This document shows, piece after piece, positions 11,401 through 46,436 of a DNA stretch of 46,436 nt. This stretch comes from Desulfovibrio sp. (lineage in GTDB: Bacteria > Desulfobacterota > Desulfovibrionia > Desulfovibrionales > Desulfovibrionaceae). The notes under the pieces were generated by a model. That model was given only the letters and a program-made list of their open reading frames with translations. It was not told the DNA's origin and ran no database searches. The stretch lies in the NCBI GenBank assembly GCA_031260965.1, contig JAISKK010000065.1, positions 1 to 46,436 on the forward strand. Reading direction: 5' to 3'. Every line of letters begins with the position of its first letter. Within the stretch, counting starts at the first letter, position 1. The position numbers were made by a program, and so were the translations under genes.

Positions 11401-11578
11401 GTTGCGGCGCTTTGCCGGGGAAAGGCGTCCTGATGATCACCTGCACGTCGGACAGATCCGGCAAGGCGTCCACCGGGGTGTCGCGTATGGCCCATAACCC
11501 CCAGGCGCTCAGGATTGCTGCGCAGATCAGCACAAAAATGCGGCCTTCCACACAGGCGCGGATCAGACGGGCGATCAT
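8402..11578 (-). CDS. cusA: Cu(I)/Ag(I) RND efflux pump, inner-membrane transporter
   Basis: Proton-driven pump of a tripartite CusCBA-type system that exports copper and silver. The 1058 residues match the CusA/CzcA length and carry the RND topology. TM4 has the proton-relay acidic residues in [17 protein letters not shown]. Copper/silver rather than Co/Zn/Cd specificity is supported by all three Met contexts of Cus[30 protein letters not shown] and [15 protein letters not shown]. It is the last gene of the operon and overlaps cusB by ATGA (start at 11578, cusB stop at 11575-11577), implying translational coupling. Its 3' end abuts adk with almost no spacer. Confidence 0.95.
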
Positions 11579-12882: not shown

Positions 12883-12885
12883 GAG

Positions 12886-13308: not shown

Positions 13309-13347
13309 GTCTTTTTCCTCTTTATAGTTTGTTTAAGGTTACAGGGG

Positions 13348-14823
13348 TCAGGAATTATAGGATGCAGAAATTACGCTATCCGCGTTCAGACCGCCGCCCA
13401 GGGCCTTGTAAAGTCTGATCTCGTTAAGTAGCTGCTCCCGGCGGATGGCCAGCAGATCCTGTTCGGTCTGATAGAGGACGCGCTGGGCGTCCAGAACCTC
13501 AAGATAGCTGACGGCGCCATTGACATAGCGGTTCATGGCCAGGTCAAGCACAGTACGTTGCGAGGCCAGATAGCGTTCCTGGGCTTTAAGCTGGCGATCA
13601 AAAGAAGCCCGGCTCTGCAAGGCATCCGCCACCTCGGTGAAAGCTGTCTGCACAACCTTTTCATACGCGGCCACGGAACTTTCCTTACGCGCCTCGGACA
13701 GATCCAGCCCGGCCTCCAGCCCCCCGCCGGCAAAGATCGGCAAGCTGATTTTGGGCAGAAAAGACCAAAGGGCATTGGAACCGACAATCAGACGATTTAA
13801 ATCTTCACTCATGTAGCCGAGGCTACCGGTCAGGTTGACGGAAGGGAAAAAAGCAGCCCGGGCAGCCCCGATATCGGCATTGGCCGCGAGCAGCCTGTGT
13901 TCGACCTCCAAAACGTCCGGGCGTTCCAGCAGCACGGAAGAAGGCAGCCCGGAAGGCAAAGCGGCCAGGCTTTGTTTACGCAGAGGTTGAGCGGGCGGAA
14001 GATTTTGCTGGACAAAACTGCCGCTTAACAGGCGCAGGGCGTTGCCGCTCTGAATAAGCTGCCGCTCCTGCCCCGCTACCGTAGCCGTAGCGAACTCCAC
14101 CATACTGCGCGCCTGTTCAAGGTCCAGCAGGGAGGATTGTCCGGACTGGACGCGCCTCTCGACAAAGGCATAGGATTTTCGCCAGCTTACAAGGTTGTTC
14201 CGGGCCAGTTGCAACTGTTCGCCGGCCAGACATTCATTCAGATAACTTTCCGCCACCTGGGCCACAAGACTGATGCGCATGGTTTTCTCCGCTTCCCGCG
14301 AGGCCAGATAGGCTTGCAGGGCAGACTCGCTCATGCTTTTGATACGTCCGAAAAAATCCAGTTCAAAGGAAGGCATGAGCCCTACTTCCAGAATCTCCAT
14401 ATGCCTCTCCCGGACTTTTCCGGAATAGTCGCCCTGCCCCACGGTCTCAAGACGCGGAAGGCGCTCCGCCCTCTGTATGCCGTATTGCGCCCTCGCCTCT
14501 TCCACGGCCAGAGCGGACATGCGTACGTCCCGGTTATGGCGCAGGCTTATGGCGATCAGTTCCCGTAAACGCGGATCTTTAAAGAAGTCTACCCAGCCGA
14601 TGTGCGCAACATTGGCGGCAGGAGACGCCTGCACATTCCCTGCACCGATAGGCCAAGTCACAACCGGCGTCCCGTCCGCCTGGACAAAATTCCGGATTTC
14701 GGCGCTGATCTGTTCCGGGACCGGCGCTTCCGGACGCGTATAGACCGGGGCCAGGGAACAGGCAGAAAGAAAGACCACCGCAAAACAAAGACCGTTGCGA
14801 ATCAATTTGCAATAAGGGCGCAT
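13348..14823 (-). CDS. cusC: Outer-membrane efflux lipoprotein of the Cus system
   Basis: TolC-like outer-membrane channel of the NodT/CusC family, 491 residues. The N-terminus has a hydrophobic segment ending in the lipobox FLSAC, with Cys22 the predicted lipidated residue. The body shows the duplicated outer-membrane efflux repeats: RHNRDVRMSALAVEEARAQY in the first half, then LLAANADIGAARAAFFPSVN, and YVNGAVSYLEVLDAQR in the second half. It leads the efflux genes on the minus strand, 39 bases ahead of cusF, so the order C-F-B-A matches the E. coli cusCFBA operon. Confidence 0.93.
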   Translation of the reverse strand: MRPYCKLIRNGLCFAVVFLSACSLAPVYTRPEAPVPEQISAEIRNFVQADGTPVVTWPIGAGNVQASPAANVAHIGWVDFFKDPRLRELIAISLRHNRDVRMSALAVEEARAQYGIQRAERLPRLETVGQGDYSGKVRERHMEILEVGLMPSFELDFFGRIKSMSESALQAYLASREAEKTMRISLVAQVAESYLNECLAGEQLQLARNNLVSWRKSYAFVERRVQSGQSSLLDLEQARSMVEFATATVAGQERQLIQSGNALRLLSGSFVQQNLPPAQPLRKQSLAALPSGLPSSVLLERPDVLEVEHRLLAANADIGAARAAFFPSVNLTGSLGYMSEDLNRLIVGSNALWSFLPKISLPIFAGGGLEAGLDLSEARKESSVAAYEKVVQTAFTEVADALQSRASFDRQLKAQERYLASQRTVLDLAMNRYVNGAVSYLEVLDAQRVLYQTEQDLLAIRREQLLNEIRLYKALGGGLNADSVISASYNS

Positions 14824-14963
14824 AAGATACCGCCTGTTGAAGGATCTGCCTCAACCAGCTCCGGACAACGGAAAAATGCCGTCCGGACGGGTGAATCTGC
14901 AAATGCAAAGCGCCTGGACGCGCAAGGCAATCGCGTTAAAACGCCTCAAAGGGGGAAAGAAAA

Positions 14964-15443
14964 TTAAAGCAGCGAAGAAGACGGAGGATGGAAGATTCCG
15001 GAGGGGTACAATGAAAAGGACCACACATAGCGATACTGAGTTGACTGATCCAGACCCGGGAGGGAAGCGACAAGCGTAAACTGCGCACCTGCCGGGGGGG
15101 GATAAAGCTGTCCGCAGGTCTGCATGTCGCAATATTTTACGGAAGCGGCGACATCAGCAACAGTGTCGGCTGGACCGTCCATGCCGGGAACGCCGGCCTG
15201 ATCCAGTCCGGCGGCAGGCTGGTGCGAATCATGGGCAGAATGTTGGGAGGCGCTGGGGGACGAAGCATGGGTATTATGCCCTGACTCGGTCCGGGACGAA
15301 AGAGAAGCGCCGTATCCGCCTTGGGCGGCATCCCGGCAAATCTCCGTCTGTCCGGCAAAAGGGCAGGCAAAGTAGAACATCGGCTGCGACCAGCCGCCGG
15401 CGAACACAAGCGCCAGCATAAGGAGCAGTGCTTTTTTCGCCAT
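14964..15443 (-). CDS. Small secreted hypothetical protein at the head of the cus operon
   Basis: Not recognised as a named family. The frame opens at 15470, but the second Met (15443, MAKKALLLMLALVFAGGW) starts a good signal peptide and lies downstream of the predicted transcription start, so it is preferred (159 residues). The mature part has paired Cys (FACPFAGQTEIC and KYCDMQTCGQLY) and a His/Ser-rich middle (HNTHASSPSASQHSAHDSHQ) similar in flavour to the His-rich parts of CusF and CusB. Its position, 140 bases before cusC on the same strand, suggests a periplasmic copper- or silver-binding accessory. That function is inferred from context only. Confidence 0.6.
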   Translation of the reverse strand: MAKKALLLMLALVFAGGWSQPMFYFACPFAGQTEICRDAAQGGYGASLSSRTESGHNTHASSPSASQHSAHDSHQPAAGLDQAGVPGMDGPADTVADVAASVKYCDMQTCGQLYPPPAGAQFTLVASLPGLDQSTQYRYVWSFSLYPSGIFHPPSSSLL

Positions 15444-15476
15444 TTTTCGTCCCGCTCTGTTAATCAGCATTTCCTA

Positions 15477-15504
15477 TTAATAGCAGAAAGAAAGATCACG
15501 TCAA
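15477..15504 (-). promoter_or_regulatory. Candidate promoter of the cus operon
   Basis: On the minus strand TTGACG (15504-15499) and TATTAA (15482-15477) are separated by 16 bases, a fair sigma-70 match. It would start transcription near 15470, which favours translation from the Met at 15443. No copper-regulator box was recognised. Confidence 0.4.
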
Positions 15505-15776
15505 GAGACAATTCCGGGGGAAAATATGAAAGTTTTTGACATTTCCGTTGATCTGTATTTTTACAATATTTTACTTATAATTAAAGATCTTGTATATCAT
15601 TTGCTAAAAAACAACAGTCGGCCCGCAGGATGTTCCGCCAACACCGCGCTTCTTTTCAACATATTTGTCTAAAATTTAACAGGTCATCATCATCCCGCAC
15701 CGGGTCCATTACTGCCTCAGATAAATTATTTTGTAATTCCAGGATATTATATCTAAATATGGCAATAAGCAAAGTC

Positions 15777-15792
15777 TGGCATCATTTATGCT
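15777..15792 (+). promoter_or_regulatory. Sigma-54-type promoter for amtB-glnK
   Basis: TGGCATCATTTATGCT has the invariant GG (15778-15779) and GC (15790-15791) exactly ten bases apart and agrees with the TGGCA...TTGCW consensus at most positions. A start near 15803 leaves a leader of about 80 bases. Sigma-54 control fits nitrogen-limitation genes. Confidence 0.65.
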
Positions 15793-15816
15793 AATTGAGG
15801 CTGACGGCTCTCCGAA

Positions 15817-15850
15817 GACAGGTAATCGGCTGCAAAGCGACCGACCTGTC
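15817..15850 (+). promoter_or_regulatory. Stem-loop in the amtB leader
   Basis: GACAGGT (15817-15823) pairs perfectly with ACCTGTC (15844-15850), with an inner CGG/CCG extension. It ends about 25 bases before the amtB SD. It could stabilise or control the mRNA; no known riboswitch was recognised. Confidence 0.4.
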
Positions 15851-15885
15851 AGAAACAATGTCGAACTTTAAAAAAAGGTATGCAT

Positions 15886-17103
15886 ATGTCCGCTGTCGAT
15901 ACCACATTCATCATCGTCGCTTCAATGCTTGTTATGCTGATGACCCCCGCTCTGGCCTATTTTTACGGCGGGCTCGTCCGCTCACGCAATGTTCTCTCCA
16001 CCTCCATGCACAGCTTGAGCATGCTCGGCCTCATTTCAATCCTCTGGGCACTGGCGGGCTTCTCCATAGCCTTTGGACCGGATATCGGAGGTCTGGTGGG
16101 AGACTTTACCTACACCTTGCTGCGGGGTGTGACTTCAGAACCGTTAAGCAACGCGGAAAGCATTCCCGGTGTGCTTTTCATGGTCTTCCAGTGCATGTTC
16201 GCGGTTCTCACCGTGGCTCTGGTCTCCGGCGCTTATGCCGAGCGCATTCATTTCCCGGCCATGCTGCTCTTTTCCGCACTCTGGCTCCTCTTCGTCTATT
16301 GTCCCATGGCTCATTGGGTATGGGGCAACGGCTGGCTGGCCAACCTGGGAGCCCTTGACTTCGCGGGCGGAACCGTGGTGCACATGACTTCCGGCGCAGG
16401 CGCTCTGGCTGCGGCCCATGTTCTCGGACCACGCATGGATTTGAGACATGGCGGCGGTGGTCTGATTAGCCCGCACAACCTGCCCATGACCTTGCTGGGC
16501 GGCGGACTGTTGTGGTTCGGCTGGTTCGGATTTAACGCCGGCAGCGCTCTGACCGCCGGCCCCCTGGCTGCTCACGCCCTGGTAACCACCCATATGGCGG
16601 CTTCCGCCGGGATCCTGGGCTGGATATGCGTGGAATGGAAATACACCGGCAAGCCCACCACTCTCGGCGTTGTCTCCGGCGCTTTGGCCGGTCTGGTGGC
16701 CATCACCCCCGGCGCCGGCTTTGTAGGCATTCTGCCCGCAATTTTCATAGGCTTTATGGGCGGCGCAATCTGCTACGGGGCTGTACTTTTAAAAAGCCGC
16801 CTGGGCTATGACGATGCTCTGGACGTGGTCGGCATCCATGGATTTGGCGGCACCTGGGGGGCTCTGGCCACCGGTATTTTCGCCACTGCTGCGGTAAACG
16901 GCGTAGATGGTCTTGCCTACGGAAATGCCGCGCAGATGTGGCCGCAATTTTTATCTGTTGCCGCGGCCTGGATTTACGGTTATCTGATAAGCCGCATCCT
17001 GCTTCATCTTGTGGATATGGTCATCGGTCTTCGCGCCAAACCAGAATCCGAACTCATGGGTCTTGACATCAGCGAACACAACGAGCGCGCCTACCAGATT
17101 TAA
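15886..17103 (+). CDS. amtB: Ammonium transporter
   Basis: Inner-membrane ammonium channel. ATGs exist at 15880 and 15886; the second has AAGG about 7 bases upstream and is preferred, giving 405 residues. About eleven hydrophobic segments are visible. The signature is intact: FAGGTVVHMTSGAGAL carries the first pore His and GIHGFGGTWGALATG the second, forming the twin-His pore. The extreme C-terminus (LDISEHNERAYQI) is the cytoplasmic tail that P-II proteins contact. glnK follows 46 bases downstream, and the sigma-54-type promoter upstream suggests induction by nitrogen limitation. Confidence 0.96.
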   Translation: MSAVDTTFIIVASMLVMLMTPALAYFYGGLVRSRNVLSTSMHSLSMLGLISILWALAGFSIAFGPDIGGLVGDFTYTLLRGVTSEPLSNAESIPGVLFMVFQCMFAVLTVALVSGAYAERIHFPAMLLFSALWLLFVYCPMAHWVWGNGWLANLGALDFAGGTVVHMTSGAGALAAAHVLGPRMDLRHGGGGLISPHNLPMTLLGGGLLWFGWFGFNAGSALTAGPLAAHALVTTHMAASAGILGWICVEWKYTGKPTTLGVVSGALAGLVAITPGAGFVGILPAIFIGFMGGAICYGAVLLKSRLGYDDALDVVGIHGFGGTWGALATGIFATAAVNGVDGLAYGNAAQMWPQFLSVAAAWIYGYLISRILLHLVDMVIGLRAKPESELMGLDISEHNERAYQI

Positions 17104-17149
17104 CAGGCGGATCCAACGGCAAATCTAACGGAAGTTAAAAGGACCAACC

Positions 17150-17488
17150 ATGAAAAAACTCGAAATCATCATCCGCACATCCAAGCTCAATTCGGTCAAA
17201 GCGGCCCTGGAAACGCTCGGAGTACACGGTATGACCATCATTGAGGTCAAAGGTTACGGCCGTCAGAGGGGACACAAGGAAGTCTATCGCGGCGCCACCC
17301 TGGAATCTCAGTTCGTGCCCAAGACGCAAATCAATATCCTGGTGCATGATGAAGGCTTAAAATCCGTGCTTGACGCCGCCATAGCGGCCGCTCAGACGGG
17401 CGAACTCGGTGACGGCAAAATAGCCATTCTGCCGGTTGAAGACGTTATCCGCATCCGCACGGGCGAACGCGGGGACACCGCTTTGTAA
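17150..17488 (+). CDS. glnK: Nitrogen regulatory P-II protein lacking the uridylylation tyrosine
   Basis: Small trimeric signal protein that binds ATP/ADP and 2-oxoglutarate and blocks AmtB when nitrogen is ample. The 112 residues have the full P-II fold: EVKGYGRQRGHKEVYRG leading into the T-loop, TGELGDGKI and VIRIRTGERG with the nucleotide-binding residues. The T-loop is altered. Residue 51, Tyr in uridylylated P-II proteins, is Leu here (ATLESQF), and the cyanobacterial phospho-Ser49 position is Ala. Modification by GlnD at that site is therefore impossible, so sensing probably relies on effectors alone. A good SD (AAGGA) precedes the ATG. Confidence 0.94.
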   Translation: MKKLEIIIRTSKLNSVKAALETLGVHGMTIIEVKGYGRQRGHKEVYRGATLESQFVPKTQINILVHDEGLKSVLDAAIAAAQTGELGDGKIAILPVEDVIRIRTGERGDTAL

Positions 17489-17595
17489 CAAATAGTGCGG
17501 TTAACGTTTCAAATTAGTCGCTTACGGCAGGCGAAGCTCGCCTGCGCCCATTTGGCGGCAAGGGTTTGGGGCAAATCCTTGCGGGAAATAAAAAA

Positions 17596-17643
17596 ACATG
17601 GAAAAGCCGCCCACGCTGAGACGCGCGGGCGGCTTTTCCATGT
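17596..17643. terminator. Strong bidirectional terminator between glnK and rpmB
   Basis: ACATGGAAAAGCCGCCC (17596-17612) is perfectly complementary to 17627-17643, a 17-bp stem, with a further CGC/GCG pairing inside the loop. On the minus strand the stem runs into a long T-tract (complement of 17590-17596), ideal for ending rpmB. On the plus strand it can also end glnK. Confidence 0.8.
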
Positions 17644-17768
17644 TCTGTCTGCTGCCCGGATTGTCGACTGCCAATGCCTGTGCCGACCGCCCGAGATAAA
17701 ATCAGTAAATTTCCGGGAGAGCCTGACCTTTTATTCTGACCCTTTATTCCGCGCTTTATCCAAACGCT

Positions 17769-17984
17769 TTATTCCGGCGCGCCCTTGTGCGCACCCGGCT
17801 TAACCACGGCTCCGGAACGGATGCAACGGGTGCAGAGCAATATTTTACGCACAGACCCGTCCGGGCTCTGGTGACGCACAGACTGAAGGTTGGGTTTAAA
17901 ACGACGTTTTGTCTTGATATTTGAATGACTGACAAGATTGCCCGTCTGGGGCGTTTTCCCGCAGTTTGCGCACTTTCTGGCCAT
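17769..17984 (-). CDS. rpmB: 50S ribosomal protein L28
   Basis: Structural protein of the large ribosomal subunit, 71 residues. It shows [19 protein letters not shown], the core L28 signature. Zinc-ligand pairs are present (Cys5/Cys8 and Cys51/Cys54), so this is the zinc-binding C+ version. An SD (GGAGGA) lies just upstream. It is transcribed alone, divergently from the yceD operon, and ends at the terminator at 17596-17643. Confidence 0.96.
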
Positions 17985-18106
17985 TATGTCCTCCGGCGTC
18001 TCAGTGACAATAAAAAATGAAGCGTCTTACTACCCGCGCCCGCAAAAAAAAGCAAGCTTTTTCTTCCCTCACGCATTTTCGGTACGAAATGGCGCAAAAA
18101 TACGCA

Positions 18107-18129
18107 CCTGAACATTGACAAGGTTCAGG
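18107..18129. promoter_or_regulatory. Palindromic operator candidate over the lipid-operon promoter
   Basis: CCTGAAC (18107-18113) and GTTCAGG (18123-18129) form a perfect 7-bp inverted repeat whose 9-base spacer contains a consensus -35 box TTGACA (18115-18120). TACTTA (18139-18144), 18 bases on, is the best -10 candidate and is weak. A dimer bound here would block RNA polymerase entering yceD-rpmF-plsX-fab. Confidence 0.5.
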
Positions 18130-18190
18130 CATAAGATGTACTTAATCCGGTCTCGGAAATCGTGCCTCAACACGTTGAGACAGGGCAGAC

Positions 18191-18898
18191 ATGGACAGCG
18201 ACTGGATAGGATTGCAAAGCCTGCCCACAGGCGGGGCGACATTCATTTTCGACAATCCGGCTGGATGGCGTACGCCTATTGAGGAATTCGCCATTTCCTG
18301 CACAGTAGTCGACCCCATCCGGGCAGAAATATTTGTTCTGCCCCAAGATGATGGCGTTCTTTTCCGGGGACGCCTCAAAGGACGGGTGACCTTGCCCTGC
18401 GATCGTTGCGCGGGTGAGGCCCTCGTGGACCTTGACTACGCCTTTGACGAGTTTGAGCCCTATCCTCCCGAAGCTTTGTCCCCGCATGCGGACAAAAAAG
18501 GGCGGGCGGCTAAAAAACACGGTCGGGACGTAAGCAACACGCCCTTGAAAGGCATAGCATCGGCCGGAAAGAGCGTGAACCCGATCGAAACCCTTGATGC
18601 GGAAACGGATCAGGCGGTCATCCGCTTTGCCTTGCGCGGGCAGGGCTTTGAAATCAATCCCGCCGCCTTGGCCTGGGAAGAGTTTTCCCTGTCCCTGCCG
18701 GCCAAACCGTTGTGTAAAAATGACTGCCGGGGCCTCTGTCCGGTCTGCGGCGCAAACTTGAATCTGGAACCATGTTCCTGCGCGGACGATGCCGGAGACC
18801 CACGCTTGCGCATCCTGCGCAGTATTAAACTGCAAAAAGAAAAAGCAGGCAACACCGAAAACCCTGTAAGGAAAAAAAATGGCCGTCCAACAAAATAA
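18191..18898 (+). CDS. yceD: YceD/DUF177 family protein
   Basis: Member of the YceD (DUF177) family, which in many bacteria sits directly before rpmF and affects 23S rRNA accumulation. The 235 residues are longer than usual (about 170-180) owing to a low-complexity Lys/Ala insert near 95-135. Two Cys pairs frame the protein: CDRCAGE near 70 and a second cluster (CKNDCRGLCPVCGANL) near 175-192, followed by a basic tail. First gene of the lipid operon, it overlaps rpmF by 20 bases. The molecular function is not established for this version. Confidence 0.82.
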   Translation: MDSDWIGLQSLPTGGATFIFDNPAGWRTPIEEFAISCTVVDPIRAEIFVLPQDDGVLFRGRLKGRVTLPCDRCAGEALVDLDYAFDEFEPYPPEALSPHADKKGRAAKKHGRDVSNTPLKGIASAGKSVNPIETLDAETDQAVIRFALRGQGFEINPAALAWEEFSLSLPAKPLCKNDCRGLCPVCGANLNLEPCSCADDAGDPRLRILRSIKLQKEKAGNTENPVRKKNGRPTK

Positions 18899-19055
18899 AA
18901 AATCAAAATCCAAAAAGGGCATGCGCCGCTCCCACCATCATGTTCCAGTTCCCGCCATTGTGCTCTGCAAATGCGGCAACCCGACCCGACCGCACGCACT
19001 CTGCCCCGTCTGCGGCGCTTATCGTGGTCGGGACTATGCCATTGCCGCGGAATAG
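18879..19055 (+). CDS. rpmF: 50S ribosomal protein L32
   Basis: Large-subunit ribosomal protein, 58 residues, starting at 18879 with TAAGGA six bases upstream. It begins MAVQQNKKSKSKKGMRRSHH, the typical basic L32 N-terminus, and carries a zinc ribbon formed by Cys30, Cys32, Cys42 and Cys45 (CKCG, CPVCG). The first pair is CXC rather than CXXC. It is tightly packed between yceD (20-base overlap) and plsX (3-base gap), which couples ribosome supply to phospholipid synthesis. Confidence 0.95.
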   Translation: MAVQQNKKSKSKKGMRRSHHHVPVPAIVLCKCGNPTRPHALCPVCGAYRGRDYAIAAE

Positions 19056-19058
19056 CAG

Positions 19059-20105
19059 ATGCCGCATGCGTCGCCTGTAATAGCCGTTGACGTGATGGGG
19101 GGCGACTTCGGTCCCCCGGTCGTCATCCCCGGCGCAATCGAGGCCGCCCGCAAAAACGGCTTCACCGTGTTGCTCACAGGCGACAAGGACACTGTAAAGG
19201 CGGAGCTTAAAAAGCACGATTGCGCGGGCGCATCCTTTGATATCGTCCATGCCTCGGAAGTCGCCCTCATGGGTGAGAAGCCCTCGGACATTCTGCGCCG
19301 CAAAAAAAATGCATCCATACAGGTAGCCTGCCGTCTGGTCAAGGAGGGCAAGGCCCACGGAGTGGTCAGTCCCGGGCATTCCGGCGCGAGCGTAGCCTGC
19401 GGCATGTTCACCATGGGCCGCATCCCCGGTATAGACCGCCCTGCCCTGGTTTCCGTTCTGCCCTCGGAAAAGCGGCCCACTGTAGTTCTGGACGTCGGCG
19501 CCAATGTTGACTGCAAGGCTTATCATCTGTTGCAGTTCGGGCTTATGGCCGATGCCTTCACCAAAACCGTTCTGGAACGCGCCAACCCGAGCATCGGCCT
19601 GCTCTCCATCGGAGAGGAGGAAGGCAAGGGCAACACCTTGGTCAAAGAGGCCTATGACCTCTTCAAACACGTCCGCAACGTCAATTTTGTCGGCAACGTG
19701 GAGGGACGTGACATCTTCACCGGAGATGTGGACATCATTGTCTGTGACGGCTTTGTCGGCAATGTGGCCTTAAAGCTCTCGGAAGGTCTTTCCACCTCCC
19801 TGTCGCGCATTCTAAAACGTGAACTTTTAAACAGCACCCTGGCGGCCAAAATCGGCTCCATCCTCTCCAAAGGCGCTTTTTCCCGATTTGCGCGCTTTGT
19901 TGATTATGCGGAATACGGCGGCGCCCCCCTGCTTGGTCTGCAGGGCATTGTAATTGTATGCCACGGGCGCTCCAATTCCAAAGCTGTGGTCAACGCGACC
20001 AAAATGGCTGCCGCCTTTGTGGAAAAGAAAACCAATGAACGCTTGAGCGCCAACATCGCCGCCAATGAAGAATTAAGCCGCTTCTGCAAGGCCATAAAAG
20101 CTTGA
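19059..20105 (+). CDS. plsX: Phosphate acyltransferase
   Basis: Converts acyl-ACP to acyl-phosphate, the donor for PlsY in phosphatidic acid synthesis, at the inner face of the membrane. The 348-residue length is normal. It shows AVDVMGGDFGPPVVIPGA at the start, the central VVSPGHSGASVACGMFTMGR, VLDVGANVDCK, and VCDGFVGNVALKLSEG near the end, all PlsX hallmarks. It follows rpmF by 3 bases and leads into fabH 43 bases on, the classic rpmF-plsX-fabH order. Confidence 0.96.
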   Translation: MPHASPVIAVDVMGGDFGPPVVIPGAIEAARKNGFTVLLTGDKDTVKAELKKHDCAGASFDIVHASEVALMGEKPSDILRRKKNASIQVACRLVKEGKAHGVVSPGHSGASVACGMFTMGRIPGIDRPALVSVLPSEKRPTVVLDVGANVDCKAYHLLQFGLMADAFTKTVLERANPSIGLLSIGEEEGKGNTLVKEAYDLFKHVRNVNFVGNVEGRDIFTGDVDIIVCDGFVGNVALKLSEGLSTSLSRILKRELLNSTLAAKIGSILSKGAFSRFARFVDYAEYGGAPLLGLQGIVIVCHGRSNSKAVVNATKMAAAFVEKKTNERLSANIAANEELSRFCKAIKA

Positions 20106-20148
20106 TGCCTGCCGACGTCCTGCGCAAAATCACCCAAGGAAGAGCACC

Positions 20149-21162
20149 ATGCCCTCGCATTCCTTAATAGGCGGATACGGCTTTGCCCTTCCCCCCAAAA
20201 CAATCCCCAACTCCTATTTCACGGAAATAGCCGGGACCGCTGATGAATGGATAGTCTTGCGCACCGGCATATCCGAGCGCCACGTCCTTGAAGATGGACA
20301 GACCGGGAGCGACCTGGCTGCGCAAGCGTCCCGGATGGCTTTGCACACCTGCGGGCGCGAAGCCTCCGACATCACCCACATCCTTTATGCGACCTGCACA
20401 GCGGATTCCTCCTGTCCATCCAGCGCCTGCGTGCTCGCCGCCAAACTTGACATAAAAAACATCATGGCCGTGGATGTGAACGCGGCCTGCTCCGGATTTA
20501 TAAACTGTCTGGAACTCGCGGACGCCATAACCGCGAGATCTCCCTCGGCCCGCGTGTTGCTGGTGGCGGCGGAAAGCCTCTTTCAGCGCTGCAACCTTGA
20601 AGACCGCTCCACCTCGGTGCTTTTCGGCGACGGCGCGGGCGTGGTTCTGGTTGAAAGAGCAAAGGCGGGGGAGCAGCCATCCTCCTCCCTGCAGCCCAAA
20701 GCCACTCTTGTTGATGTGCAGATCGGCTCGGACGGGAGCCTGGGGAATCTTCTGCTCATGAACGGCGGTTTTGCCTCCGTGCCTTACAAACTCGGCGCAA
20801 CTGTCGGTCCGGAATATTTCATCCGCATGAACGGCGGACTGGTCTTCAAGCACGCCGTCCGGCACATGTGCGCCAGTTGTCTGGAACTTCTGAACCGCAA
20901 TGGGCTTGGGGTCGAAGATGTTGATCTTTTTGTACCGCACCAAGCCAATCTGCGCATCATAGAATCCGTCGGCGCAAAGCTCGGCATTGCGGGGGAAAAA
21001 GTTTTTCTGAATGTGCAGAAATACGGCAACACCTCGGCGGCCTCCGTGCCCATCGCCCTTGGCGAAGCCTTGCTTGAGGGACGCGTCCGCGAAGGCATGC
21101 TGGTGCTTATAACAACTTTCGGCGCCGGTCTGACCTGGGGATCGGCCCTGCTGAAATTTTAA
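20149..21162 (+). CDS. fabH: 3-oxoacyl-ACP synthase III (KAS III)
   Basis: Starts fatty acid chains by condensing acetyl-CoA (or another acyl-CoA) with malonyl-ACP. The 337 residues include the catalytic triad in standard context: Cys114 in NAACSGF, His in FVPHQANLRI and Asn in KYGNTSAASVP. TEIAGTADEWIVLRTGISER near the N-terminus is a KAS III motif. The start has AGGAAGAGCACC upstream. Primer preference (straight or branched) cannot be judged by eye. Confidence 0.96.
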   Translation: MPSHSLIGGYGFALPPKTIPNSYFTEIAGTADEWIVLRTGISERHVLEDGQTGSDLAAQASRMALHTCGREASDITHILYATCTADSSCPSSACVLAAKLDIKNIMAVDVNAACSGFINCLELADAITARSPSARVLLVAAESLFQRCNLEDRSTSVLFGDGAGVVLVERAKAGEQPSSSLQPKATLVDVQIGSDGSLGNLLLMNGGFASVPYKLGATVGPEYFIRMNGGLVFKHAVRHMCASCLELLNRNGLGVEDVDLFVPHQANLRIIESVGAKLGIAGEKVFLNVQKYGNTSAASVPIALGEALLEGRVREGMLVLITTFGAGLTWGSALLKF

Positions 21163-38730: not shown

Positions 38731-38758
38731 TTGACTTCGCTTTCGGTATAGGTAAAAC
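38731..38758 (+). promoter_or_regulatory. Candidate promoter for the CoA-transferase operon
   Basis: TTGACT (38731-38736) and TAAAAC (38753-38758) are 16 bases apart. Transcription near 38766 would give a leader of about 385 nt that contains all of the structures described downstream. Confidence 0.4.
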
Positions 38759-39149: not shown

Positions 39150-40697
39150 ATGGTTCAATTTATCAGCCTTGAAGAAGCGGCGGCCCTGGTCAAAGACAAT
39201 GACACCATTGCTACGGAAGGCTTTTTGCGCAACGCCTTTCCGGAACAGTTGTCAATCGCCCTCAAGGAACGTTTCCAGAAGACCGCTTCCCCCAAAGGAC
39301 TTACCCTCATCTATGCGGCCGGACAGGGCGGCGGCGCGGGAACCGGACTTGACCACATTGCCCAGGAAGGTCTGTTGAAACGGGTTATCGCCGGGCACTA
39401 CAATTTGAGCCCCAGTCTCGGCAAGCTGATCGCCGAAAACAAAATCGCCGCCTACAACCTCCCCCAGGGAACCATTTCCCAGTTGTACCGCGACACTGCG
39501 GCGGGCAAGGTGGGAACCATTACCCATGTCGGCCTTAAAACTTTTGTGGACCCGCGCGTGGACGGCGGCAAGCTCAACGCCCTGGCCAAGGAAGACGTGG
39601 TCGAAGTCGTCAACGTCGGAGGACGCGAACAACTGCTGTACAAGGCCCAGCCTCTGAACTGCTGCTTCCTGCGCGGCAGCTATGCCGACGAAAAGGGCAA
39701 CATTTCTCTGGACAGAGAAGCTGTAACCCTGAACGGACTGTCCATTGCCCAGGCGGTAAAGAGAAACGGCGGCAAGGTCATTGTCCAGGTCGGGCAGATA
39801 GTGAAGGCCGGCAGCCTTCCGGCCAAGTCCGTGCACATCCCCTTCATTTATGTGGACGCGGTAGTGGAAGTGCCTTTTGAAATCCAGACGGCGGAAGCGG
39901 CCGCCGGCTTTGTTGACGTGTATTCCGGCGAGCGTCGTATTCCGACGAACTCCCTGCCCCCCCTGCCTCTTGATGAACGCAAAATCATCGGCCGGCGCGC
40001 GGCCTTCGCACTTACCCCCAATTCCATCGTCAACCTGGGTATCGGCATGCCGGAATCCGTGGCCATGGTGGCCAACGAAGAAGGCATCGGCGATTACATG
40101 ACCCTGACTGTGGAATCCGGCCCCATAGGTGGCGTTCCCGCCGGTGGTGTTATCTTCGGCGCCGCAGTCAACCCTGACTGCATTCTGGACCAGGCCTATC
40201 AGTTCGACTTCTACGATGGCGGCGGTCTGGATCTGGCCTATCTGGGCCTGGCCGAATGCGATGAGAAAGGCAACATCAACGTCAGCAAAATGGGACCACG
40301 CGTCACCGGCTGCGGCGGTTTCATCAACATCACCCAGAACGCCAAACGCCTCTTCTACTGCGGCACCTTTACCGGCAAGGGCCTGAAAATAAAGGCTGAA
40401 AACGGCAAACTCGTCATCGTGCAGGAAGGTTCCATCAAAAAGTTCGTAAAAAAAGTCGGGCATGTGACCTTCAGCGGCGAATACGCCGCCCAGATCGGTC
40501 AGCCCGTGCTTTATATAACGGAACGCGCCGTGTTCGAGCTACAAAAGGACGGACTGCATCTCATTGAGGTAGCGCCCGGCATCGACGTTGAAAAAGACAT
40601 TCTGAACCAGATGGAGTTCAAACCGATTATCAAAGGTTCGCCCAAGCTGATGGACGCCAGAATTTTCAAAGACGCGGTCATCGGACTCGGCAAATAG
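39150..40697 (+). CDS. Class I acyl-CoA:acetate/propionate CoA-transferase (Pct/YdiF-type)
   Basis: Moves CoA from a donor such as acetyl-CoA to a short carboxylic acid. It is a single-chain fusion of the alpha and beta halves, 515 residues, the size of propionate CoA-transferase and YdiF. The first half has LTLIYAAGQGGGAGTGLDH, NVGGREQLLYKA and NCCFLRGSYADEKGN. The second half has NLGIGMPESVAMVANEEG and the catalytic Glu near 322 in TVESGPIGGVPAGG, followed by GLDLAYLGLAECDEKGN. An SD (AGGAGA) precedes the ATG. It is the first gene after the long leader and the entry step of the proposed catabolic operon. The exact acid cannot be read from the sequence. Confidence 0.9.
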   Translation: MVQFISLEEAAALVKDNDTIATEGFLRNAFPEQLSIALKERFQKTASPKGLTLIYAAGQGGGAGTGLDHIAQEGLLKRVIAGHYNLSPSLGKLIAENKIAAYNLPQGTISQLYRDTAAGKVGTITHVGLKTFVDPRVDGGKLNALAKEDVVEVVNVGGREQLLYKAQPLNCCFLRGSYADEKGNISLDREAVTLNGLSIAQAVKRNGGKVIVQVGQIVKAGSLPAKSVHIPFIYVDAVVEVPFEIQTAEAAAGFVDVYSGERRIPTNSLPPLPLDERKIIGRRAAFALTPNSIVNLGIGMPESVAMVANEEGIGDYMTLTVESGPIGGVPAGGVIFGAAVNPDCILDQAYQFDFYDGGGLDLAYLGLAECDEKGNINVSKMGPRVTGCGGFINITQNAKRLFYCGTFTGKGLKIKAENGKLVIVQEGSIKKFVKKVGHVTFSGEYAAQIGQPVLYITERAVFELQKDGLHLIEVAPGIDVEKDILNQMEFKPIIKGSPKLMDARIFKDAVIGLGK

Positions 40698-40822
40698 CTA
40701 AAACGGCTTTTCCTTGCGCCTCCCCTCTCCTTACGGACCCGAGGCGCAAAAAATATTCTCAGGTTTAAGGGATTGAAAGAGTTATATGTCCAGTCAACCT
40801 CTTGCTATGAAGGAGTTAGAAC

Positions 40823-41599
40823 ATGGCTTATGAGAATCTGCTTTTTGAAGTTGAAGGAAAGATTGCCATCATCACCATGAACCGTCCGAAAGCCCTCAAC
40901 GCGCTGAACGACGGGCTGCTGAAAGACCTGAACTCCGCCCTGGACGAAGTGTCCGGCAACGCGGATATCAAGGGCGCAATCATCACCGGAGCCGGGAAGT
41001 CCTTTGTGGCCGGCGCGGATATCAGCCAGATGGCCGACTATACTCCGGAAGAGTGCCGGGCCTATATGGGATATGCCCAGCAGACCTTCAACCGCATCGA
41101 ATCCATTGAAAAACCGATCATGGCCGCAGTAAACGGCTATGCCCTCGGCGGCGGCAACGAACTGTGCATGGCCTGCGATTTCCGCTATGCCAGTGAAGCG
41201 GCCCTTTTCGGACAGCCCGAAGTGAACCTCGGCATCATGCCCGGTTTCGGCGGCAGTCAGCGTCTGCCCCGGCTTGTGAACCCCGGCGTGGCCAAGGAAA
41301 TTATTTTCTCCGGTCGTAATCTCAAGGCGGATGAAGCCCTGAAGATCGGTCTGGTCAGCAAGGTCACGGCCCCCGACGACCTGCTCCCCGAAGCCAAAAA
41401 AATTATGGCGACCATAGTCTCCAAACCCGCGCATTCCCTGCGCTACTGCAAGGTTTCCATCAACAGGGGCCAGGACACCGACCTGTACAAGGCCATTGAA
41501 CTGGAACTGGATCTGGTGTCTTTGTGCTTCTCCTCACCCGATCAGAAAGAAGGCATGAAAGCCTTCCTGGAAAAACGCCCCGCTCAGTTCAAGAGCTGA
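40823..41599 (+). CDS. Enoyl-CoA hydratase (crotonase family)
   Basis: Adds or removes water at the double bond of a short 2-enoyl-CoA. The 258 residues are normal length. ITGAGKSFVAGADISQM forms the first oxyanion/CoA loop. The two catalytic acids are present: Glu113 in ALGGGNELCMACD and Glu133 in FGQPEVNLGIMPGFGG. The C-terminal EGMKAFLEKRPAQFK is typical of short-chain crotonases. An SD, AAGGAG, lies upstream. The gene follows the CoA-transferase by 125 bases on the same strand, suggesting hydration or dehydration of the acyl-CoA made there (crotonyl-, acryloyl- or similar). Confidence 0.92.
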   Translation: MAYENLLFEVEGKIAIITMNRPKALNALNDGLLKDLNSALDEVSGNADIKGAIITGAGKSFVAGADISQMADYTPEECRAYMGYAQQTFNRIESIEKPIMAAVNGYALGGGNELCMACDFRYASEAALFGQPEVNLGIMPGFGGSQRLPRLVNPGVAKEIIFSGRNLKADEALKIGLVSKVTAPDDLLPEAKKIMATIVSKPAHSLRYCKVSINRGQDTDLYKAIELELDLVSLCFSSPDQKEGMKAFLEKRPAQFKS

Positions 41600-41694
41600 T
41601 TGCAAAAGAAGCGGACAAAGCTGCGGCCGAGGGTTATCCAAGGCATGTCTGCTCGGACGCTGCATAAGCGGCGGTGAATGCTGCCCGCGCCATC

Positions 41695-41738
41695 CGGAGG
41701 AACATATGGCAAGGGGTTGCCGACTTTGTCGGCAACCC
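41695..41738 (+). repeat. REP-like hairpin before the GntP-family gene, containing a tiny ORF
   Basis: An 11-bp perfect stem (GGGTTGCCGAC, 41714-41724; complement 41728-41738) closes on TTT. CCGGAGGA and GCAAGGGG precede it, as in the element at 4540-4595. An ATG at 41706 with GGAGG five bases upstream opens an 11-codon frame (MARGCRLCRQP, stop at 41739-41741) running through the hairpin. Confidence 0.45.
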
Positions 41739-41814
41739 TGAGCGGCCACCGGCAAGGCGAAGGCTAATTGCGTTACACAACACGCCAACTTTATAACTCT
41801 GGAGATGATGTATT

Positions 41815-43260
41815 ATGGTTATCGGCATTCTAGCTTCACTCCTTCTCTTAACGCTCATCGCGTACAGGGGTCTCTCGGTCATCCTGTTCGCCCCGGTCTG
41901 CGCCTTGCTCGCCTGCATAACCGCAGGCTGGCCGCTTCTGCCTTCCTACACGGAAATTTTCATGACCCGCGGCGTTATTTACGTCAAAAACTTCTTCCCC
42001 ATCTTCCTGCTCGGCGCCGTGTTCGGCAAGGTCATGGAAGAAAGCGGCTGCGCCCGCTCCATCGCCAAACTTTTCGCTGAAAAGCTCGGCTCCAAACACG
42101 CCTGCATAGCCGTGGCCACGACCACAGCCGTGCTCACTTACGGCGGCATCAGCATGTTCGTGGCGCCTTTCGCGGTTTATCCTTTCGCCTACGCCCTGTT
42201 CAAGGACGCCGGCATTCCGCGCCGCCTCATTCCCGGCTCCATCTGCATAGGCACCTTTACCTTTGCCATGACCTGCATGCCCGGTTCCCCGCAAATTCAG
42301 AACATGATTCCGGCCAACTACTTCGGCACGACCCTGTATGCCGCCCCCGTATTCGGCATCTGCGGCACCATCCTGCTGGCCGGCATGAGCATGATCTGGA
42401 TCGGCTGGCGTCAAAGGAAACTCATGCACGAGGGTTTCGGCGAACTCGACACGCGGTCCACGACCAACCTGGACGACGGCGTGGAACTGCCCAATCCGGT
42501 ACTGGCCCTGATTCCCTGCGCAGTGGTGCTGGTAGGAAACGTGGTATTCACCACCATACTCGCGGGTCAGGATCCTTTTTACATTATGGGCAAGTTCACG
42601 CCCTTGTTTGATAAATCCGTCCTGGACTTCGTGCCCAAGAAAGGCCTGGAAACCCTGGTCGCGGGCAGAATCCCGGTAGCCAACTGGGCCCTGCTGATCT
42701 CCCTGATCCTCTCCATCATTGCGGCCATAGCCGTCAGCTTCAAACAGTTCTCGATCCGCAAGAACCTTGGCGCCACCCTGAACGCCGGCGCCCTCGGCTC
42801 CCTGCTCGCCATCATGAATACGGCCTCCGAAGTCGGCTACGGCAACGTGGTCAGCTCTCTGCCCGGCTTTAACTCCGTCAAGGAGTTCCTGATGAGCGTC
42901 AGGTTCGGCGACGGCCCGCTGATGTCCGAGTTCCTCACCGTCAACGTGCTGGCCGGCGTTACCGGATCGGCCTCCGGCGGCATGAGCATCGCCCTGGAAG
43001 CCATGGGTAAAACCTTTCTTGACTGGGGCGCCAGCGCCAACCCGGTCATTGGTCCCGAGCTGTTGCACCGTGTCGCGGCCATGGCCTCCGGCGGTCTGGA
43101 CTCCCTGCCGCATAACGGCGCCATCATCACGCTTATGGCCATCACCGGCATGACCCATCGCCAGTCCTATCCGGACTGCGGCATGGTCTCCGTTGTCATG
43201 CCCATAGTGATTACCTTTGTGCTGGTTGTTATCTGGACCATATTCGGATTTACCTCATAA
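41815..43260 (+). CDS. GntP-family carboxylate/hydroxy-acid permease
   Basis: Predicted inner-membrane importer of a small organic acid. The 481 residues contain about twelve hydrophobic segments. Features of the GntP/CitM-type fold include GAVFGKVMEESGCARSIAKL near the N-terminus, TYGGISMFVAPFAVYPFA, the pore-like MPGSPQIQNMIPANYFGT, and near the C-terminus SGGMSIALEAMG, ASGGLDSLPHNGAIITLM. GntP relatives move gluconate, but family members next to CoA-transferases often carry hydroxybutyrate-like acids, so the neighbours favour uptake of the pathway substrate. GGAG lies ten bases upstream of the ATG. A strong hairpin follows the stop. Confidence 0.82.
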   Translation: MVIGILASLLLLTLIAYRGLSVILFAPVCALLACITAGWPLLPSYTEIFMTRGVIYVKNFFPIFLLGAVFGKVMEESGCARSIAKLFAEKLGSKHACIAVATTTAVLTYGGISMFVAPFAVYPFAYALFKDAGIPRRLIPGSICIGTFTFAMTCMPGSPQIQNMIPANYFGTTLYAAPVFGICGTILLAGMSMIWIGWRQRKLMHEGFGELDTRSTTNLDDGVELPNPVLALIPCAVVLVGNVVFTTILAGQDPFYIMGKFTPLFDKSVLDFVPKKGLETLVAGRIPVANWALLISLILSIIAAIAVSFKQFSIRKNLGATLNAGALGSLLAIMNTASEVGYGNVVSSLPGFNSVKEFLMSVRFGDGPLMSEFLTVNVLAGVTGSASGGMSIALEAMGKTFLDWGASANPVIGPELLHRVAAMASGGLDSLPHNGAIITLMAITGMTHRQSYPDCGMVSVVMPIVITFVLVVIWTIFGFTS

Positions 43261-43282
43261 ATCCGTTTTCTCTGGCAAAACG

Positions 43283-43320
43283 CGTCTCCCGTGGGGTTTT
43301 AGCCAACCCCACGGGAGACG
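43283..43320 (+). terminator. 16-bp perfect hairpin between the permease and antiporter genes
   Basis: CGTCTCCCGTGGGGTT (43283-43298) is fully complementary to 43305-43320 with a 6-nt loop. No T-tract follows, so it may be a partial terminator or an mRNA-stabilising stem that lets the two halves of the operon differ in level. Confidence 0.55.
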
Positions 43321-43381
43321 GCGGTTGAAAGGACCCCAGGCATTTTTTAAAAAACCCACGCTAATCCAAGGACAAGAAGAA

Positions 43382-44896
43382 ATGTCTCCTTTAACGGTAC
43401 GCATTCCCGCCGCCCGCGTTGAGGGCAATTTTTCCCGTGCGGCCTTCGCTCTTGCTCTTTTGGGCCTGACTGCAATTTTTCTTTTCTCCTTTCCCGAGGC
43501 CGGGCTGTGCGCGGGGGGGCTGCACGAAGCCAGCGAAAAACTCGGCGCCCAGTTCTCAATATTCTGGATCCTGCCCTTTGTCTGCATGCTGCTCTCCATC
43601 GCCATTGGCCCCTTGGCCGCGCCCCATTTCTGGGAACACCATTACGGCAAGGTAGCCGCATTCTGGGGACTGGCCTTTCTTGTTCCTTTCGCCCTGCTCT
43701 ATGGTTTTTCCCTGGCAGTCTATCAATTTATGCACGCCATGCTGCAGGAATACATTCCCTTCATCATCCTGCTTTTGGCCCTCTTTACCGTAGCCGGCGG
43801 CATCCGCCTGAAAGGAACCCTGGCCGGAACCCCGGCCGTGAACACAGGCCTTTTGGCCGTCGGGACTTTACTCGCAAGCTGGATGGGTACCACGGGCGCG
43901 GCCATGCTTTTAATCCGCCCCCTGCTGCGGGCCAACTCGCACCGCCGCTATAAAGTCCACAGCGTGGTCTTTTTTATTTTCCTGATTGCCAATATCGGCG
44001 GCTCGCTGACCCCGCTCGGAGACCCGCCCCTCTTCCTGGGCTTCTTGCAGGGCGTGGACTTTTTCTGGACCCTGACCCATGTCTTCCAGCCCACGCTGAT
44101 TGCCGCCTGCGTTCTGCTCGCCCTGTACTTCGTCCTTGACACGGTGCTCTACGGCAAAGAAGGCCGTCCGGTGCATCCGGAGGCCAACAGCGGCGAAAAA
44201 CTGGCCCTGGACGGGAAGGTCAACTTCCCCCTGCTGGCCTGCATAGTGCTTCTGGTGCTCATCAGCGGCGTGTGGAATCCGCATGTGGAATTTTCGATCT
44301 ATGAAGTACACCTTGAATTGCAGAACATCATGCGCGATATCCTGCTCCTGGCCGTAGCCTGCGCTTCCTGGAAACTCACTTCACAGGAATGCCGCAAACT
44401 GAATGAATTCAGTTGGGGCCCCATCCAGGAAGTCGGAAAACTTTTCCTGGGCATCTTCATCAGCATGATTCCGGCCCTGGCCATCCTCAAAGCCGGCAGC
44501 AACGGCGCCCTGTCCGGTCTGATCAGCATGGTCAGCGACAACGGGCAACCGAACAACGCCATGTTTTTCTGGCTTACCGGCGCTCTCTCCAGCTTCCTTG
44601 ACAACGCGCCGACCTATCTTGTATTTTTCAACACAGCGGGCGGACTGTCCGGGGTAAGTCCCGACATGTTTGCCGGGCAACTCATGGGGCCCTGGGCACA
44701 AACCCTGACGGCGATTTCCGCCGGAGCGGTCTTTATGGGGGCGAACTCCTATATCGGCAACGCGCCCAACTTCATGGTCCGCTCCATCGCTGAAGAACTC
44801 GGCGTGAAAATGCCCAGCTTTTTCGGTTATATGGTCTGGTCGGTGGGAATACTTATCCCGGTATTCATCCTGCTGACTTTCATCTTTTTTATCTAA
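43382..44896 (+). CDS. NhaD-type sodium:proton antiporter family protein
   Basis: Ion-transporter superfamily membrane protein of the NhaD/ArsB type, probably exchanging Na+ and H+. The frame is open from 43217, but MSPLTVRIPAARVEG at 43382, with AAGGA about nine bases upstream, is the likely start (504 residues). About twelve hydrophobic segments are seen. The two half-sites are clear: NIGGSLTPLGDPPLFLGFLQG and GALSSFLDNAPTYLVFFN, both conserved in NhaD-like proteins. A pathway-linked role, for instance removing Na+ brought in with the substrate, is inference from position. Confidence 0.82.
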   Translation: MSPLTVRIPAARVEGNFSRAAFALALLGLTAIFLFSFPEAGLCAGGLHEASEKLGAQFSIFWILPFVCMLLSIAIGPLAAPHFWEHHYGKVAAFWGLAFLVPFALLYGFSLAVYQFMHAMLQEYIPFIILLLALFTVAGGIRLKGTLAGTPAVNTGLLAVGTLLASWMGTTGAAMLLIRPLLRANSHRRYKVHSVVFFIFLIANIGGSLTPLGDPPLFLGFLQGVDFFWTLTHVFQPTLIAACVLLALYFVLDTVLYGKEGRPVHPEANSGEKLALDGKVNFPLLACIVLLVLISGVWNPHVEFSIYEVHLELQNIMRDILLLAVACASWKLTSQECRKLNEFSWGPIQEVGKLFLGIFISMIPALAILKAGSNGALSGLISMVSDNGQPNNAMFFWLTGALSSFLDNAPTYLVFFNTAGGLSGVSPDMFAGQLMGPWAQTLTAISAGAVFMGANSYIGNAPNFMVRSIAEELGVKMPSFFGYMVWSVGILIPVFILLTFIFFI

Positions 44897-44948
44897 TAGG
44901 AAAAGGCACTTCTTTTTCGTCAACAGCCCAAACCAGTATGAGGAATCC

Positions 44949-45731
44949 ATGAAAAAAATTGCCGTCTGCTACAAATGGGTGCTCTCGGACGCCGACATCC
45001 GCATCAACGAGAGATCCCGCGAACTGGACATGGAAAAATGCAAGCCTCAGGTCAATGAATATGACCGCAATGGAATTGAGTGCGGAGTGAAACTCAAAAG
45101 AGCCACCGAGCGCGAGCTTGTGGGCGTTACCTGCGGTACCGCAACCGCTGCTTCCGCCAAAGACGCCCTGTCCCGCGGACTGGACGCCGTCTATTTTCTT
45201 GACGATGCCGCCCTGGCCTCGGTGGACAAAATCGGCTCTTCCAAAGTACTGGCCGGAATAATAAAAAAAATCGGCGATGTTGATGTTGTCATCTGCTCGG
45301 AAGCCTCCAGCGACGACTTCGGCCAACAGACCGGTCCCCGTATTGCCGCCCTGCTCGGCTGGCCTTCGGTGAGCTATGTTACGAAAGTAGAAGCCGGCGG
45401 AGATTCTTTCTCCCTGGAGCGCAAACTGGAAGACGGCCTTGAATGCGTTACTGTCAACACGCCCGTTGTCATCACCGTATCCCCCGATGTGGGTGAAGCT
45501 CCCATCCCCGGAGTTAAAGACATCCTGGGCGCGAAAAAGAAACCGGCAACCGCATTGAGCCTCGGCGACGCAGGAATCTCGGCCGACGCACTGCAGCCGC
45601 GCTCCAATCGCGTTAGTGTGCTCGCCCCTGTTACCGCCCGTAAAAAACAGCTCCTGAACCCGGACGGGGTGAGCATCGATCAGGCGGCGGTCGCTCTCGT
45701 CAAAGAACTTTCCACAGCCGGAATCTTGTAA
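44949..45731 (+). CDS. etfB: Electron transfer flavoprotein beta subunit
   Basis: Small subunit of the heterodimeric flavoprotein that exchanges electrons with acyl-CoA dehydrogenases. The 260 residues start MKKIAVCYKWVLSDADI. DRNGIECGVKLKRATE, AKDALSRGLDAVYFLDD and CSEASSDDFGQQTGPRIAALLGWPSVSYV match EtfB/FixA, and NTPVVITVSPDVGEAP precedes the C-terminal tail. The start lies 52 bases after the antiporter gene; etfA follows 11 bases after its stop. Whether it is the bifurcating type needs comparison with characterised enzymes. Confidence 0.94.
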   Translation: MKKIAVCYKWVLSDADIRINERSRELDMEKCKPQVNEYDRNGIECGVKLKRATERELVGVTCGTATAASAKDALSRGLDAVYFLDDAALASVDKIGSSKVLAGIIKKIGDVDVVICSEASSDDFGQQTGPRIAALLGWPSVSYVTKVEAGGDSFSLERKLEDGLECVTVNTPVVITVSPDVGEAPIPGVKDILGAKKKPATALSLGDAGISADALQPRSNRVSVLAPVTARKKQLLNPDGVSIDQAAVALVKELSTAGIL

Positions 45732-45742
45732 AGGAGATCATC

Positions 45743-46436
45743 ATGCGAGATATATGGATAATAGCCGAAAATCCCGCCTGGGCCTCGACCCTTGTCAGCG
45801 CCGCCAAAAGCCTGGATACGGCCGCAACGCTTACCGCCTTCGTCAAAGGCGATGAGGCTGCGGCCAAAGAAACAATAAGCTTCGGCGCGGCTTCCGCTTT
45901 TGCCCTGCCTCTGCCTGCGGCCGGAATCTGGGAAGATTATACCCCGGCTCTGGTGGAAAAGGCCAAAGCCGATAAACCTGCCTTTATTCTGGTCAGCGCA
46001 TCCAAACGGGGTCGGGATCTGGCCGCCCGTCTGGCCGCCCTGCTGGACGCTCCCTTCTTCTGCGATGCGAAAAATCTGGCCCTTTCCGGAGACGCTTTCA
46101 GCGCCGAGACCTCAGTCTACGGCGGCGCAGCAGTTCGCACGGACTCCACCAAGGCTCCGACTGTGCTCGTAACTCTTGCCGCCAAAAGCTATGACCCGAC
46201 ACCCGCCAACGCCTCCAACTCCGGCCCTGTCGCCACCCTGCCCTATACTCAGGGCAGCGTTAAGGTTACAGAACGCAAAGCGCGTGCCCAGCAGTCCGTC
46301 AACCTCCCCGAAGCCGCCAAAGTAGTCGCCGTGGGCCGGGGCTTTGCCGAAGAAAAAGACCTCGCCGCCGCCAGAGATCTGGCCGCCGCCCTCGGCGCGG
46401 AGATGGGCTGCTCGCGTCCGATTGCCGAGTTCTTCA
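45743..46436 (+). CDS. etfA: Electron transfer flavoprotein alpha subunit (3' end outside the window)
   Basis: Large Etf subunit, cut by the right edge after 231 codons. The ATG at 45743 has AAGGAG eight bases upstream. The N-terminal domain shows MRDIWIIAENPAWAST, ILVSASKRGRDLAARLAALLDAPF (split here as ILVSASKRGRDLAARL) and SVYGGAAVRT. The last visible residues, VVAVGRGFAEEKDL and ALGAEMGCSRPIAEFF, open the C-terminal FAD-binding domain. An acyl-CoA dehydrogenase or Etf oxidoreductase gene may well follow outside the window. Confidence 0.92.
   Translation, partial: MRDIWIIAENPAWASTLVSAAKSLDTAATLTAFVKGDEAAAKETISFGAASAFALPLPAAGIWEDYTPALVEKAKADKPAFILVSASKRGRDLAARLAALLDAPFFCDAKNLALSGDAFSAETSVYGGAAVRTDSTKAPTVLVTLAAKSYDPTPANASNSGPVATLPYTQGSVKVTERKARAQQSVNLPEAAKVVAVGRGFAEEKDLAAARDLAAALGAEMGCSRPIAEFF

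Follow-up and report, generated by a model that had tools for sequence, protein, structure and literature searches.

A conserved eight-gene Desulfovibrio operon that probably links C4-acid activation to quinone through FixABCX

The systems closest to the locus studied here are the ydiF-ydiO-ydiP-ydiQRST-fadK locus of Escherichia coli, the caiTABCDE and fixABCX genes for crotonobetaine reduction in the same species, the operons of Azospirillum and Cupriavidus in which a GntP permease occurs with 3-hydroxybutyrate dehydrogenase under HbcR-type sigma-54 regulation, and clostridial butyrate-type clusters such as that of Clostridium drakei (L066) for crotonase, coenzyme A (CoA)-transferase, dehydrogenase, 3-hydroxybutyryl-CoA dehydrogenase (Hbd), thiolase and the electron transfer flavoprotein (ETF) subunits EtfBA. 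To our knowledge, neither the substrate nor the direction in which electrons flow has been firmly established for the E. coli ydi locus and its FixABCX relatives. In this study, we analysed a 46,436-nucleotide stretch of DNA from Desulfovibrio sp. (assembly GCA_031260965.1; hereafter the window), which is the complete contig C69 of a 2.46-Mb genome in 164 contigs (completeness 95.7%). Based on open reading frame calls and profile searches, six genes on one strand were identified at its end:

39150..40697, + strand: CoA-transferase, family I, of the YdiF/FadX/Pct kind (515 residues; PF01144, PDB 2ahu)
40823..41599, + strand: crotonase / short-chain enoyl-CoA hydratase (258 residues; PF00378, NF004475, PDB 5z7r)
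41815..43260, + strand: GntP-family permease, of a subgroup that occurs next to 3-hydroxybutyrate genes (481 residues; PF02447)
43382..44896, + strand: CitMHS_2 transporter (504 residues; PF16980, 662.7 bits)
44949..45731, + strand: FixA / EtfB, YdiQ-like (PF01012; NF008998 as best model)
45743..46436, + strand, cut by the contig end: FixB / EtfA, YdiR-like (PF01012 and PF00766)

The window ends where contig C69 ends, so that etfA is merely cut there. The final 21 bases of the window recur without mismatch at the start of contig C79 in reverse complement, and reading on into C79 completes FixB (309 residues) and adds FixC (427 residues) and FixX (93 residues), with yajC, secD and secF downstream of fixX. 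Independent support for this join comes from two relatives (L043 and L044), in which YajC and SecD also lie 3' of FixX on contigs that are unbroken there. The initial annotation of the window had placed the six genes in this order on one strand, which is confirmed by the profile matches and the conserved order, and had proposed that the sequence beyond position 46436 be checked for an ETF-quinone oxidoreductase or an acyl-CoA dehydrogenase. The former is indeed present on C79 as FixC/FixX, whereas none of the genes downstream encodes the latter, which is found elsewhere in the genome.

The gaps across the eight genes are, in order, 125, 215, 121, 52, 11, 59 and -1 bases, and a ribosome-binding-site-like sequence lies upstream of most starts. 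Five further species of this genus (G005, G008, G012, G003 and G013) have kept the complete order CoA-transferase, crotonase, GntP, CitMHS_2, FixA, FixB, FixC, FixX, with protein identities of 65-97%. Given the full-length family matches, the ribosome-binding-site-like sequences and the same order in these species, the gene run is beyond chance and, as judged from sequence, is a real, conserved eight-gene operon. Uptake, CoA activation, a crotonase step and flavin-based electron transfer, which had been proposed to act in combination, are thus also kept together in relatives. A crotonase at least 78% identical to that of the window was found in 7 of 40 related genomes, all from the same genus, and the best match outside the genus reached 49%. 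In two of these genomes, G007 and G004, the crotonase orthologue adjoins an acyl-CoA dehydrogenase instead, and G007 also has a GntP permease at 70% identity. The nearest transferases among named genomes belong to Desulfovibrio metagenome-assembled genomes (MAGs) and one genome labelled Deltaproteobacteria. Judging from their isolate codes, these isolates presumably came from termite gut. In addition, dsrA was detected in the genome above its curated cut-off, which indicates that the host is a sulfate or sulfite reducer and agrees with the earlier description of it as a sulfate reducer.

When compared with the described systems, the gene types of the operon are familiar and their arrangement is new. 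The ydi locus shares the transferase (43.6% identity to YdiF) and the four Fix proteins (FixA 30% to YdiQ, FixB 37% to YdiR, FixC 55% to YdiS and FixX 46% to YdiT), whereas the Desulfovibrio operon lacks a YdiO-type dehydrogenase and a FadK ligase and adds a crotonase, GntP and CitMHS_2. The cai and fix genes resemble it in FixABCX (34-52%), a crotonase-family hydratase and the quinol-to-enoyl-CoA logic; however, the transferase here is of family I (PF01144) and not a family III CaiB, GntP takes the place of the CaiT antiporter, and CaiC ligase and CaiE have no counterparts. With the Azospirillum and Cupriavidus operons it shares the permease (43-47%), located by CoA-transferase/thiolase genes, and a paralogous cluster of the present genome (contig C133) also has a divergent sigma-54-type regulator, but 3-hydroxybutyrate dehydrogenase is absent and the acid would be activated before oxidation. 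The C. drakei cluster has a transferase and a crotonase of the same kind (61% and 56%) and the same acyl-CoA chemistry, although its EtfBA keeps the bifurcation signatures that FixABCX of the Desulfovibrio operon lacks.

Taken together, we consider it fairly likely that the operon is a C4-acid module, which would activate the acid, take part in crotonyl-CoA/butyryl-CoA redox chemistry and be wired to quinone by FixABCX. The transferase matches the structure of E. coli YdiF (2ahu) with 455 bits and 43.6% identity over 516 residues, and its Glu322 aligns with the YdiF catalytic Glu; different substrates occur within this YdiF-like family. Among the 79 nearest named transferase loci, counted within whatever sequence stretch was available per locus, crotonase was present at 43, GntP at 32, acyl-CoA dehydrogenase at 24, Etf at 23, thiolase at 18, Hbd at 17 and MaoC at 14, and Lon, an unrelated control, at none. 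In a quick transferase tree with single-test support, the genus clade was sister to the sequence of an Enterobacteriaceae termite MAG (L057) and next to one from Peptococcaceae (L058). L057 has one cluster (9941-21119) of transferase, MaoC, acyl-CoA dehydrogenase, FixABCX, GntP, crotonase and a divergent sigma-54 regulator, and the occurrence of such a cluster in Enterobacteriaceae, with a transferase sister to those of Desulfovibrio, is likely due to transfer between phyla. L058 contains GntP, transferase, MaoC, a thiolase-like gene and crotonase. The crotonase of the window has retained both catalytic Glu residues (GGGNE and GQPE motifs) and is therefore of the hydratase type; its best model was NF004475 and its best structure PDB 5z7r, a short-chain enoyl-CoA hydratase.

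The permease matched PF02447 with 32.4 bits (cut-off 22.5), and its tblastn-detected kin at 43-47% identity are annotated as GntP. The neighbours of such kin include scoAB and 3-hydroxybutyrate dehydrogenase on a plasmid, a sigma-54 regulator and 3-hydroxybutyrate dehydrogenase in another case, and CoA-transferase and thiolase in yet another; one of six kin examined adjoins a malonate decarboxylase-type gene. In Pseudomonas, the sigma-54 activator HbcR is responsive to (R)-3-hydroxybutyrate (PMC10482368). Our literature search returned no paper that joins GntP with 3-hydroxybutyrate and CoA-transferase, and none that combines sulfate reducers with C4 acids. For CitMHS_2, whose kin carry the annotation 'sodium:proton antiporter', the ATG at 43382 was preferred over the upstream TTG of the open reading frame. 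The sodium-coupled import suggested in the initial annotation is thus a putative function drawn from PF16980 membership and the names of kin.

The permease, the YdiF-type transferase, the crotonase with its catalytic residues and the full FixABCX set were read from the sequence, and we infer the remaining steps as follows. The GntP permease would import 3-hydroxybutyrate, crotonate or butyrate, and the transferase would form the CoA ester with acetyl-CoA or another acyl-CoA as CoA donor. The crotonase would then interconvert crotonyl-CoA and (S)-3-hydroxybutyryl-CoA, while an acyl-CoA dehydrogenase from elsewhere, most likely the AcrC-like enzyme of the paralogous cluster, would interconvert crotonyl-CoA and butyryl-CoA. 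FixAB would relay the dehydrogenase electrons to FixCX or accept them from it, with no bifurcation involved, and FixCX would exchange them with menaquinone. Hbd and thiolase, encoded elsewhere, may split the oxidised branch to acetyl-CoA. The role of CitMHS_2 is the least certain of all parts; it may maintain an ion gradient or exchange an acid.

Genes for these additional steps are present in the genome. Acyl-CoA dehydrogenases are encoded at three places, including one on contig C147, which holds the continuation of a dehydrogenase gene that breaks off where C133 ends. The exact-overlap join of C133 and C147 failed, and the two were placed together by synteny only, with a few dehydrogenase residues missing. 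The resulting paralogous cluster (L003 on C133, 716-5993, and L140 at the reverse end of C147) contains a crotonase (67% identical to that of the window), a CoA-transferase (50%), the dehydrogenase, a MaoC hydratase and a GntP permease (42%), with the sigma-54-type regulator divergent from the crotonase; its gene order also occurs in four or five relatives. The crotonase and MaoC hydratase of this cluster could epimerise (R)- and (S)-3-hydroxybutyryl-CoA. Contig C88 carries hbd, above its curated cut-off, together with thl.

Group 2 bifurcating ETFs are marked by two motifs that surround the bifurcating flavin, RxGV and SPTxV, and by the Arg of RPxFGG, whose replacement in the Thermotoga enzyme abolished ferredoxin reduction (PMC10734219). 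In our alignment, FixA has MEKC at the RxGV site, no SPTxV, and DDFGQQTG in place of DGDTAQVG, and in FixB a Thr replaces the Arg of RPxFGG. Deviations from these signatures are also seen in the orthologues of the five other species, in those of L057 and in both E. coli sets, whereas the C. drakei control keeps all of them; each signature is present in C. drakei or CarD. A Sinorhizobium match intended as a FixA control was an unannotated record with no adjoining fixC and was not used. The absence of all tested signatures from FixAB makes a simple relay likelier, and it is most likely, on the basis of these motifs, that FixABCX serves as a plain relay between an acyl-CoA dehydrogenase and quinone. 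Searches with both ETF families detected FixAB of this operon as the only ETF in the assembly, so that FixABCX is the sole ETF partner there for the acyl-CoA dehydrogenases encoded at three places. In three of the orthologous loci (L042, L043 and L044 of G012, G003 and G013), FixB is shorter by about 22 residues, in the region of position 40-65, than in the window, G005 and G008.

The direction of electron flow in the cell may be oxidative or reductive. With a potential of about -10 mV for crotonyl-CoA/butyryl-CoA (PMC5861303) and about -74 mV for menaquinone (PMC10734219), transfer from menaquinol to crotonyl-CoA is downhill, and oxidation of butyryl-CoA by menaquinone must be pulled. In the presence of sulfate, the acid would be an electron donor; alternatively, conversion of crotonyl-CoA to butyryl-CoA would be a sink fed by menaquinol. 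It is possible, though we hold it with considerable reservation, that this gut sulfate or sulfite reducer respires enoyl-CoA, with imported 3-hydroxybutyrate or crotonate as acceptor and butyrate as product; electrons would pass from menaquinol, reduced by hydrogen or another donor, through FixCX and the non-bifurcating FixAB to a crotonyl-CoA reductase. The reductive direction would mean that a sulfate reducer of the gut respires an enoyl-CoA, and the oxidative one a route for using butyrate-type acids, which are abundant in guts. Since FixABCX is encoded here together with a crotonase and with a permease whose kin indicate C4 acids, with no other ETF in the genome, the operon offers a concrete substrate test.

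Several observations weigh against a C4 substrate. The assignment is by association, because it rests on gene neighbours; no acyl-CoA dehydrogenase gene lies in the operon, from 39150 to secDF; two of the six permease kin examined adjoin alcohol dehydrogenases; and the transferase family also includes partners of 2-hydroxyacyl-CoA dehydratases, two relatives (L111 and L115) being adjacent to such dehydratase genes. Moreover, the best model for the G007 and L057 dehydrogenases was the acryloyl-CoA reductase AcrC (511 and 548 bits), as it was for the dehydrogenase beside the crotonase orthologue in G004, propionate/acrylate-type enzymes occur in the transferase family, and 3-hydroxypropionyl-CoA dehydratase is among the structural relatives of the crotonase. 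These features would suit a C3 module, in which acrylate is imported, activated and either reduced to propionyl-CoA as an acceptor or hydrated to 3-hydroxypropionyl-CoA. We regard such a module as rather unlikely: the AcrC scores fall under the curated cut-off of 640 bits, the L111 and L115 transferases are distant from that of the window in the tree, C4 genes adjoin both the closest transferases and the permease kin, and no 2-hydroxyacyl-CoA dehydratase gene lies in the operon, while the genome search gave a single PF06050 fragment of 59 positions. Thus, of the substrates put forward in the initial annotation, 3-hydroxybutyrate and crotonate fit the kin of the transferase and permease, whereas acrylate and 3-hydroxypropionate are less favoured because the dehydratase-linked transferases are tree-distant and no complete dehydratase was found in the genome.

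On the other hand, the genes might merely stand in a row, belong to unrelated pathways and be transcribed independently. The gaps of the first half (125, 215 and 121 bases), two of which hold strong hairpins, and the pairing of the crotonase orthologue with a dehydrogenase in G007 and G004 would agree with this; however, the eight-gene order is kept in six species at identities down to 65%, spacing is tight throughout the second half (52, 11, 59 and -1 bases) and the hairpins have no T-runs, which makes independent genes improbable. Even slimmer chances are given to a bifurcating FixABCX that reduces ferredoxin from NADH together with menaquinone and lies beside the acid genes by chance. The four-subunit composition is the same as that of the Azotobacter and Thermotoga enzymes (PMC5861303, PMC10734219), but every group 2 signature checked, including the Arg essential in Thermotoga, is absent here as well as in the orthologues of five species and L057, and chance placement is hard to reconcile with the fact that L057 and six species of the genus all have the set next to acid genes.

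The regions upstream of and between the genes contain the following candidate elements:

38731..38758, + strand: candidate operon promoter (TTGACT, 16 nt, TAAAAC), found in alignments
41714..41738, + strand: 11-bp perfect hairpin in the crotonase-permease gap, with no T-run
43283..43320, + strand: 16-bp perfect hairpin in the permease-CitMHS_2 gap, with no T-run

At the same place as the candidate promoter, G005 and G008 carry TTGACC-N16-TATATT. The sequence in the window is weak and the consensus scanner made no call there; scans for promoters and terminators gave no excess over shuffles. Several orthologous gaps also hold strong hairpins, which differ in sequence. A complex RNA-like leader had been suspected upstream of the operon. 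We rejected a riboswitch or structured RNA at this site, as there was no Rfam match at two thresholds, the folding energy was close to that of shuffles (z -0.47), and conservation was poor in an alignment of six orthologues (49% mean column identity), with a three-orthologue alignment likewise giving nothing.

Some additional arrangements were observed around transferase relatives and in the rest of the window. Clostridium aestuarii (L059, 2400-13022) has three consecutive copies of a CoA-transferase and GntP pair. In L053, where the permease and fix genes are absent, the transferase-crotonase pair stands opposite a gene for a beta-keto acid cleavage enzyme (BKACE, 12530-13462), which scored best with the model for 3,5-dioxohexanoate:acetyl-CoA acetone transferase. 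The window also encodes, at 8402-14823 on the - strand, a heavy-metal-type resistance-nodulation-division (RND) efflux system with an AcrB-family pump, a CusB-like adaptor containing a metal-binding domain and an outer-membrane channel.

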